Of a stretch of DNA of 64,000 nucleotides, positions 39,643-50,936 are shown piece by piece. The notes beneath the pieces are model-generated. The model ran no database searches and was not told where the DNA came from. It saw only the letters and a program-made list of their open reading frames with translations. Where the stretch lies: assembly GCF_009765835.1 (NCBI RefSeq), contig NZ_LMUS01000006.1:2348645-2412644 (forward strand), read 5' to 3'. The first letter of the stretch is position 1. Each line of letters opens with the position of its first letter. Source of the stretch: Granulicella sp. L56. GTDB lineage: Bacteria > Acidobacteriota > Terriglobia > Terriglobales > Acidobacteriaceae. The position numbers and the translations under genes are program-made.

Positions 39643-39687
39643 ATTAAGCAGGAATCGCGATGACAAATCTATTGGACGAACGTATTG
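39643..39687 (-). promoter_or_regulatory. Regulon promoter G-reverse (toward atypical SDR)
   Basis: Minus-strand operator CAATACGTTCGTCCAATAG at 39669-39687, 20-nt spacer, -10-like CTTAAT at 39643-39648. The leader is about 20 nt. Confidence 0.75.
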
Positions 39688-39766
39688 ACTGCCACCAAAG
39701 TATGGATTGGCAGGAGCGCGGAGCGGTGCGTCCTCTATTCTGCGGGTTCCGATACAAAGGTATTGC

Positions 39767-39811
39767 CGATACCATCGTCCAATTGCTTCACCGGAATACC
39801 TCGGGTGTAAT
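39767..39811 (+). promoter_or_regulatory. Regulon promoter G-forward (toward carbonic anhydrase operon)
   Basis: Operator CGATACCATCGTCCAATTG at 39767-39785, 20-nt spacer, -10-like TGTAAT at 39806-39811. Part of a 117-bp divergent block with extra half-sites at 39693-39708. Confidence 0.75.
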
Positions 39812-48140: not shown

Positions 48141-49523
48141 TTAGTTTGCTAGGCGTATTCCGCTGAACTGCCATCGTGTCGCGGGAGAAAAGAAGTTTCG
48201 ATAGGTTGCGCGCATGTGATCCGCGGGTGTGACGCACGAGCCACCTCGCAGAATCATCTGTGCAGACATGAACTTGGCGTTGTATTCGCCCAATGTGCCT
48301 CGGAGAGGTTTGTATCCTGGATAGCCTGTATAAGCGCTGGCCGTCCATTCCCAACAGTCACCGAATAATTGCTCGACGCCCTCCGCGCCATTCAACACTG
48401 ACGGATGAAGTCTGCCTGACTCGAGAAAATTACCTCGTACGAGTTCCTGACTCGCGAGCGCTTCCCATTCGATTTCGGTGGGAAGTCGACAGGAACTCCA
48501 CTTGGCAAAGGCGTCGGCCTCGAAGAAACTGACGTGACAAACTGCAGTGTCGAATTGATCCGAAAGTCCATACCACCCCCTAAGAGTAAAGATTCTCCAA
48601 CCGGTGCTATCGCTCGGGTCCCGTTCCCAATAAAGCGGCGCGTGCCACTTCGATTGCTTCACAGTCTCCCAGCCGTCCGATAACCACAGATCGGGTCGGT
48701 TATATCCCTCATCGGACATGAAATCGAGATACTCGCGACACGTTACCTTGCGGCTTGCGATCCTGAATGGCTGCAGGTAGACCCAATGACGCGGAGCTTC
48801 ATTGTCAAAGCAAAAGTCCAAAGGGTTGTCGCGGTCCGGCGAATGGCCAATCTCCCTAAGCCCACCACTGTAGCTGAGCCATTGCAGAGCCGGAACTTGA
48901 TCAGCACGCTCTTTCGCCAGCGTATTGGCCTGGTAGGCCGGACGGAGAGGATTCGAGAAGAATGCATGCTTGATGTCGGTTAATGCTAGTTCCTGATGCT
49001 GTTGCTCATGGCTCAGGCCCAGGATGACGCGTCGAGTCACCTCTTCATTGATGGGCTGCTTAAAGAGTCTCTCCATCTCCCGATCTACATGCGCCCGAAA
49101 GGCTACAACCTCTTCAAGTGATGGACGAGAGAAGGACGATCTAAGCTTTTTTTCGGGAATTTCGTCTCCTAGAGACAGGTAATAACTGTTGAAGAGATGA
49201 TGGAAATCTTCACGGAACGGTTTGTAGCCTAGAAGGTACGGTCGCAGCACAAACGTCTCGAAGAACCATGTCGTATGCGCTTGATGCCACTTCACTGGAC
49301 TGGCATCAGTACATGACTGAACCATCTGATCCTCAGCGGATAATGTCGCAGCCAGACGACGCGTCATCGATCTCACAGACCGATATCTTGAGTGAAGAGA
49401 GGAAGCAGCAAGATCGGAGCTCCCGGGTGCTCCGGGATCATGAGGTTTTCTCCGATCGCTTGGAATGTATGCGGCGGATCCCGTGGCTAGGCACATTGTT
49501 CCTTCAGTGTGAAAAGCACTCAT
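48141..49523 (-). CDS. egtB: Ergothioneine biosynthesis protein EgtB (hercynine sulfoxide synthase)
   Basis: 460 residues from ATG 49523, chosen for AGGAGG 6 nt upstream; the upstream frame crosses the promoter. N-terminal DinB-like domain with iron ligands 'PVKWHQAHTTWFFE' near 78 and 'LSHEQQHQELALT' near 175. C-terminal formylglycine-generating-enzyme-like domain: 'VTCREYLDFMSDEGY', 'CRLPTEIEWEALA' near 345, 'LFGDCWEWTASAYTGYPGYK' (part: 'GDCWEWTASAYTGY') and 'RGGSCVTPADHMRATYRNFF' (part: 'GGSCVTPADHMRATYRN'). It joins sulfur to hercynine with iron and O2. Under promoter I. Confidence 0.93.
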   Translation of the reverse strand: MSAFHTEGTMCLATGSAAYIPSDRRKPHDPGAPGSSDLAASSLHSRYRSVRSMTRRLAATLSAEDQMVQSCTDASPVKWHQAHTTWFFETFVLRPYLLGYKPFREDFHHLFNSYYLSLGDEIPEKKLRSSFSRPSLEEVVAFRAHVDREMERLFKQPINEEVTRRVILGLSHEQQHQELALTDIKHAFFSNPLRPAYQANTLAKERADQVPALQWLSYSGGLREIGHSPDRDNPLDFCFDNEAPRHWVYLQPFRIASRKVTCREYLDFMSDEGYNRPDLWLSDGWETVKQSKWHAPLYWERDPSDSTGWRIFTLRGWYGLSDQFDTAVCHVSFFEADAFAKWSSCRLPTEIEWEALASQELVRGNFLESGRLHPSVLNGAEGVEQLFGDCWEWTASAYTGYPGYKPLRGTLGEYNAKFMSAQMILRGGSCVTPADHMRATYRNFFSPATRWQFSGIRLAN

Positions 49524-49545: not shown

Positions 49546-49590
49546 ATTAGGCCGGAAGAAGCTAGAGACGGCAATTGGACGAAGGTATCG
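49546..49590 (-). promoter_or_regulatory. Regulon promoter I (toward egtB-egtD)
   Basis: Minus-strand operator CGATACCTTCGTCCAATTG at 49572-49590, 20-nt spacer with CTTCCGG, -10-like CCTAAT at 49546-49551. A second palindrome AATACCAAAGTATTG lies adjacent (49591-49605). The leader is about 16 nt. Confidence 0.8.
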
Positions 49591-49919: not shown

Positions 49920-50096
49920 CTACCAAATTTTGTAGCCGAACCGGAGCGCGACTATCAGAAATGACAGAATGACCGCAACCGCGACAAGAAATCCCAGCAT
50001 CACCGAGTTTGGGTGGATATAGAAGTAGTCTTCATCTGAAGACATCTGATAAACGTGAAATGAACGTGTCTTCTTGCCAAGCATGAATAATTTCAT
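49920..50096 (-). CDS. Small single-pass membrane protein
   Basis: 58 residues (starts MKLFMLGKKTRSFHVY, ends RFGYKIW). A hydrophilic N-terminal ~30 residues ('MSSDEDYFYIHPNSV') is followed by one membrane helix ('MLGFLVAVAVILSFLIVAL') and a short basic tail. No family recognised. Its ATG overlaps the stop of the upstream 41-codon gene (ATGA), a translational-coupling arrangement. Both are downstream of promoter J-reverse, whose consensus quality supports real expression. The positive-charge balance suggests the C-terminus is cytoplasmic. Confidence 0.7.
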   Translation of the reverse strand: MKLFMLGKKTRSFHVYQMSSDEDYFYIHPNSVMLGFLVAVAVILSFLIVALRFGYKIW

Positions 50097-50218
50097 GGCT
50101 TAGCCTTGCGAATGAGCAGATCCTCTCCCTGCAACTCGCTCAGTCTTCGTGGTGCGTCCCCCTGATTCGACAGGGGACAGTCGAGAAAAACACTTCTCGG
50201 AATGATGTCAAAACGCAT
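50093..50218 (-). CDS. Small protein (41 residues) first in a two-gene unit
   Basis: Starts MRFDIIPRSVFLDCP and ends GEDLLIRKAKP. GGAAGGGAG lies about 8 nt before the ATG at 50218. It is hydrophilic, with no signal peptide, and no family is recognised. The predicted transcript start from promoter J-reverse near 50240 gives a ~20-nt leader. It overlaps the membrane-protein gene by 4 bp. Confidence 0.65.
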   Translation of the reverse strand: MRFDIIPRSVFLDCPLSNQGDAPRRLSELQGEDLLIRKAKP

Positions 50219-50246
50219 CGCAGTGCTCCCTTCCAAACGCAATGTG

Positions 50247-50291
50247 ATTAAGCCACGAGCGCGGAAGCGAATCTATTGGACGATGGTGTTG
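50247..50291 (-). promoter_or_regulatory. Regulon promoter J-reverse (toward two small genes)
   Basis: Minus-strand operator CAACACCATCGTCCAATAG at 50273-50291, 20-nt spacer, -10-like CTTAAT at 50247-50252 after CTCGTGG. It is the left half of the 58-bp palindrome 50273-50330. Confidence 0.8.
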
Positions 50292-50311
50292 GCCAATACC
50301 TAGGTGTCCAT

Positions 50312-50356
50312 CAATACCAAGGTTCAATAGCTCTGCTCTCACTCTTCTGGTCTGAT
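50312..50356 (+). promoter_or_regulatory. Regulon promoter J-forward (toward yceI-like gene)
   Basis: Operator CAATACCAAGGTTCAATAG at 50312-50330, 20-nt spacer with CTTCTGG, -10-like TCTGAT at 50351-50356 in TGn context. Right half of the 58-bp palindrome centred on CCTAGG. Confidence 0.82.
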
Positions 50357-50390: not shown

Positions 50391-50936
50391 ATGAGTTCAA
50401 CTACTAATATTTCGACGTGGAACCTCGATGCTGGCCATTCGGCCGCCGGCTTTAAGGTGAGACATATGATGATCTCCCATTCGAAGGGTGAGTTCTCAGG
50501 CCTCTCAGGTGTGTTGCAGCTAGACGAGGTTGATTACACTCATTCGACAGTTGAGGCTTCGATTCCAGTCTCTACGCTGAGAACCGGTGATGACAGTCGC
50601 GATGAGCATCTGAAAAACGCAGATTTTTTTGATGTCGAGAGGTTTCCCACGATGACATTTGAGTCCACCAGCATGAGGTCTACCGGCGCCCGCAATTATG
50701 CGGTAACCGGCGATCTGACCATCCACGGTGTTACAAAGTCCGTGACACTGACCGTTGAAGATGTCAGCCAGCCTTCTAAAGACCCTTGGGGTAACTGGCG
50801 CATCGGTCTATCCGCCTCCGCTAAGATCAATCGCAAAGACTTCGGGCTAACCTGGAACTCCGCGTTGGAGTCGGGAGGGGTGCTGGTAGGTGACGAAGTG
50901 ACCCTCACACTCGATGTGCAATTCGTTCAGGGATAA
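50391..50936 (+). CDS. YceI-family lipocalin-like protein
   Basis: 181 residues, usual length. 'WNLDAGHSAAGFKVRHMMISHSKGEFSG' (part: 'AGFKVRHMMISHSKGEF') near 15, 'DDSRDEHLKNADFFDVERFPTMTF' (part: 'RDEHLKNADFFDVERFP') near 66, 'VTGDLTIHGVTKSVTL' near 105 and 'NRKDFGLTWN' near 150. The fold binds long isoprenoids such as ubiquinone precursors in relatives. No signal peptide is present here, so it is cytoplasmic, unlike E. coli YceI. A-rich AAAAAGGAG precedes the ATG. Confidence 0.92.
   Translation: MSSTTNISTWNLDAGHSAAGFKVRHMMISHSKGEFSGLSGVLQLDEVDYTHSTVEASIPVSTLRTGDDSRDEHLKNADFFDVERFPTMTFESTSMRSTGARNYAVTGDLTIHGVTKSVTLTVEDVSQPSKDPWGNWRIGLSASAKINRKDFGLTWNSALESGGVLVGDEVTLTLDVQFVQG

Follow-up and report, generated by a model that had tools for sequence, protein, structure and literature searches.

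AcrZ, KdpF, SafA and CydX are small membrane proteins that act as accessories of transporters, kinases and oxidases. A pair of overlapping small ORFs in a detoxification and stress island of Granulicella sp. L56 can be compared with these proteins on the one hand, and with AhpC/TSA and SelL-related redox proteins on the other. Proteins of the latter kind, in the same bacterial family, resemble the first ORF of the pair over their first 36 residues. However, this ORF of 41 codons ends before Cys45 and cannot form the thioredoxin fold. We analysed the pair within a window (the whole stretch of DNA studied, 64,000 nucleotides long), and argue that its two members probably have very different standing.

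Results

Both ORFs proposed from the sequence alone are present on the minus strand. The 41-codon ORF (50218-50093) overlaps the 58-codon ORF (50096-49920) at an ATGA, and has the good ribosome site that had been claimed for it, a GGGAG upstream of an ATG at 50218. A mechanical ORF list opens this frame earlier, at a TTG at 50242, but we prefer the ATG because of the ribosome site and because homologues align with it from residue 1. The divergent neighbour yceI (50391..50936, plus strand; PF04264, E = 3e-50) lies under the opposite arm of the promoter region that it shares with these ORFs, and has its promoter at 50324 (plus strand). The next downstream gene is egtB-like (ergothioneine pathway; 48141..49520, minus strand; FGE-sulfatase and DinB_2 domains) and has its own regulon promoter at 49578 on the minus strand. 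An Rfam search of the locus gave no match.

The promoter element of the small ORFs, CCAATAG-N18-GGCTTAATC (50246..50279, minus strand; named J-reverse in the sequence-only reading), is preceded by boxes and matches other regulon promoters of the window, where the same element is found before egtB, SDR, glgX, DJ-1, a TrxR-like gene and other genes. The operator region shared by yceI and the small ORFs (50281..50324) contains tandem GGTATTG-nn-CAATACC-like boxes, at 50285-50300 and adjoining it. The distance from the -10-like element to the first ATG is 27 nt at the 41-codon ORF, which fits the 21-35 nt seen at egtB, SDR, yceI and the TrxR-like gene and agrees with the earlier description of a correctly spaced regulon promoter. 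A generic sigma-70 scan did not report the promoter at 50279-50246. Among 398 family genomes, 42 carry the strict pattern of the element, and a reversed-control pattern had no matches in the genomes listed; in the window's own genome, all seven strict-pattern matches fall inside 48 kb. In the genus, the yceI loci that match best are without the promoter boxes, and the two of them read in detail contain no similar small ORFs. The divergent architecture of GGTATTG-nn-CAATACC boxes and CAATAG-N18-GGCTTAATC recurs, for example at 2736-2781, 39675-39779 and 50279-50324, and is also seen in scattered genomes of the family.

To estimate chance expectation, we used 5000 dinucleotide shuffles of a 724-nt stretch. 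An ORF of at least 58 codons occurred in 56% of the shuffles, so that length by itself carries no significance for the 58-codon ORF. An ORF of at least 41 codons that lay close to the start and had a ribosome site occurred in 2.5%, the same with an ATGA-coupled ORF of at least 40 codons in 0.06%, and the same with a membrane helix in none of the 5000. The combination of features is significant, as is the conservation, in keeping with the earlier claim that spacing and coupling make chance unlikely.

We then examined the 58-residue protein (49920..50096, minus strand). Its hydropathy peak is 2.99, and a single-sequence AF2 model predicts one helix at residues 9-57, confident at residues 31-50 and of low confidence before the helix. 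Two intact homologues, 45-59% identical, were found. The one in Granulicella sp. L46 matches at 63% over residues 10-58 (E = 4e-16), that in Bryocella elongata DSM 22489 at 49% over residues 8-58 (E = 4e-11). The alignment of the three sequences has 18 invariant columns, dense in the motif VYxMSxxxDYFYxxPN[ST]V, after which come the helix and, at the C-terminus, IW. In two pairs dN/dS was 0.26 and 0.18, values that are historical and do not prove present use of the window copy, and substitutions concentrated at third positions. Synonymous change was saturated in the third pair (pS of 0.76 versus pN of 0.27). When the window frame was mutated without constraint, about 4 of 10,000 trials per pair arrived at the observed identity with the frame still free of stops. 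As judged from these three sequences, on which the constraint rests, the 58-residue frame is under purifying selection. The sequence-only reading had named absence of frame conservation or of coding constraint as evidence against its proposal; both conservation and constraint were found. Together with the promoter, the homologues and the constraint uphold the proposal of a real single-helix membrane protein placed with detoxification genes.

In searches for members of the family, a first contig scan, including plasmids, found no homologue, a search of 62 genomes of the genus returned only chance matches, and 398 family and 387 class genomes contained no further convincing member. The distribution is narrow, as about 400 family genomes yielded no more than three intact members. 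One match in a family genome (E = 1.4e-5) covers only the hydrophobic half, without the motif, and was judged to be due to chance; it lies between P450 and TPR genes, where the strict pattern finds no promoter. Another candidate proved to be an unrelated hydrophobic ORF. The protein had no match in Pfam, NCBIfam, PHROGs or PDB sequences, no viral relatives were found, and a literature search found nothing. The best reading of these comparisons is that it represents a new family of small single-pass membrane proteins, absent from Pfam and NCBIfam.

The 41-codon ORF (50093..50218, minus strand) gave a different picture when its homologues were sought in 300 family genomes. The best matches align with residues 1-36, always from residue 1, at 44-56% identity (best E = 7e-6), and lie in larger ORFs, typically of about 200-210 residues, in many Acidobacteriaceae. 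The ORF alone has no Pfam match, while a homologue belongs to PF00578 (AhpC/TSA; E = 1.7e-12); otherwise, SelL-related redox proteins (NF040769) are only weakly linked to the homologues. Homology to the N-terminus of the AhpC/TSA family thus amounts to 53% identity over residues 1-36, from Met1. The active-site cysteine and the full thioredoxin-fold domain are missing, as the ORF stops before the conserved Cys45, and it is altered at 6 of the 19 N-terminal positions that are invariant in seven homologues. Nucleotide identity to the start of the peroxiredoxin-like gene (prx) of B. elongata is 73/108. The locus contains no prx sequence past residue 36 (residues 37-200), and elsewhere in the genome there is no intact prx orthologue, only relatives of about 25% identity. 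No stand-alone 41-residue homologue was seen. On this homology, a deleted AhpC/TSA peroxiredoxin-like gene has left the ORF as its 5' stump; the ORF is a remnant and not a member of the family, and the suggestion that it is an independent small gene is not borne out. The ATGA coupling is, therefore, probably a by-product of the deletion. The terminal RKAKP of the stump may be the old prx C-terminus, brought there by an in-frame deletion. We also considered joining the two frames into a single gene, and rejected this since the halves match different proteins.

Gene order in the relatives is informative. In B. elongata, the promoter lies between yceI and, in the other direction, prx, the small protein and an aldo/keto reductase. 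One copy in Granulicella sp. L46 has fba on one side of the promoter and the small protein followed by glgX on the other, without prx. In the second island copy of this genome, prx has no start and carries an in-frame stop and a frameshift, and is followed by what is left of the small protein, a relic of its helix, and then by glgX. Given the orders in B. elongata and in this second copy, promoter, prx and small protein is most likely the ancestral arrangement. The two small ORFs do not recur elsewhere as a pair; relatives carry the membrane protein either with prx or by itself. All three genomes have lost or broken prx and retain one intact small protein each, in every case downstream of the same promoter type and in a homologous island. 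Codon 141 in the prx of B. elongata DSM 22489 (L055:5023-5612) is an in-frame TGA, at a position occupied by Trp or Phe in homologues; either a genuine nonsense mutation or an error of sequencing could account for it.

The island itself (window 1037-50936) is common to Granulicella sp. L46, in two copies, and B. elongata, with the order shuffled. Its genes include DJ-1, glyoxalase, aldo/keto reductase, EmrAB-TolC, glgP/glgX, fba and MPG, as well as egtB/egtD, yceI, a PAS kinase and a FixJ-type regulator, and an ECF sigma factor. The homologous islands have in common the pump of the EmrAB-TolC type and the regulator of the FixJ type.

Discussion

We place a probability of roughly 85% on the identity and history of the two parts given here, namely a prx stump followed by a surviving small membrane protein. 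That both ORFs are functional microproteins forming a translationally coupled pair would agree with the good ribosome site, the canonical promoter distance of the first ORF and the ATGA overlap. However, the first ORF derives from prx, lacks Cys45 and has changed at otherwise invariant positions; it is not matched by any stand-alone homologue, and the prx of relatives is full-length, broken or absent, so that such a pair appears improbable. Even harder to credit is the notion that both frames are open merely by chance within the divergent transcript of a bidirectional promoter. Although shuffled sequence readily yields an ORF as long as the second, the homologues of both ORFs in matching frames count strongly against chance, as does the coding-type pattern of substitution.

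Decay of the whole stretch, with prx deleted and the membrane protein open but unused, is unlikely but deserves somewhat more weight than either of these. The breakage of prx in all three genomes, the decay of the second Granulicella copy of the membrane protein and the narrow distribution of this protein are all in keeping with it. On the other hand, the 58 codons have stayed open with their conserved residues, dN/dS is low in pairs that include the window copy, the promoter is intact, and the intact Granulicella copy sits directly under the regulon promoter.

For the preferred reading of a stump and a surviving protein, the following course of events can be proposed. The ancestral locus would have been an operon of promoter, prx and small membrane protein in a stress and detoxification island. 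Deletion of most of prx, including Cys45, would have left a translated stump of 41 codons. The stop codon of the stump runs into the small protein's start, and the stump may now act mainly as a translated leader that feeds ribosomes to the membrane protein. The island is probably controlled by its FixJ-type regulator, which would induce this promoter unit. Since basic residues precede the helix, the protein is predicted to insert with its N-terminus inside, and the conserved acidic and aromatic juxtamembrane motif might then dock on a membrane partner upon induction of the regulon. Candidate partners are the EmrAB-TolC-type pump of the island, a membrane-bound oxidoreductase and a sensor kinase, none of which is singled out. 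That the small protein serves such a partner as an accessory or regulator is a tentative proposal, to which we give somewhat less than even odds. Our results speak neither for nor against the regulation of a pump or kinase suggested in the sequence-only reading. More doubtful is the further idea that the small protein is the selected core of the promoter unit, outliving prx in every genome that has it, with its motif controlling the pump or kinase of the island as feedback on the regulon.

Taken together, these results add to a stress island that recurs in acidobacteria an undescribed family of small proteins whose promoter and motif are defined. They also illustrate how gene decay can yield an apparent pair of overlapping small genes, in which the 5' stump of a deleted enzyme is coupled to a surviving small protein. 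In contrast to AcrZ, KdpF, SafA and CydX, the 58-residue protein is without a Pfam, NCBIfam or PDB sequence match and its partner is a proposed one; in size, in its single predicted helix and in its stress-linked promoter, it resembles them.
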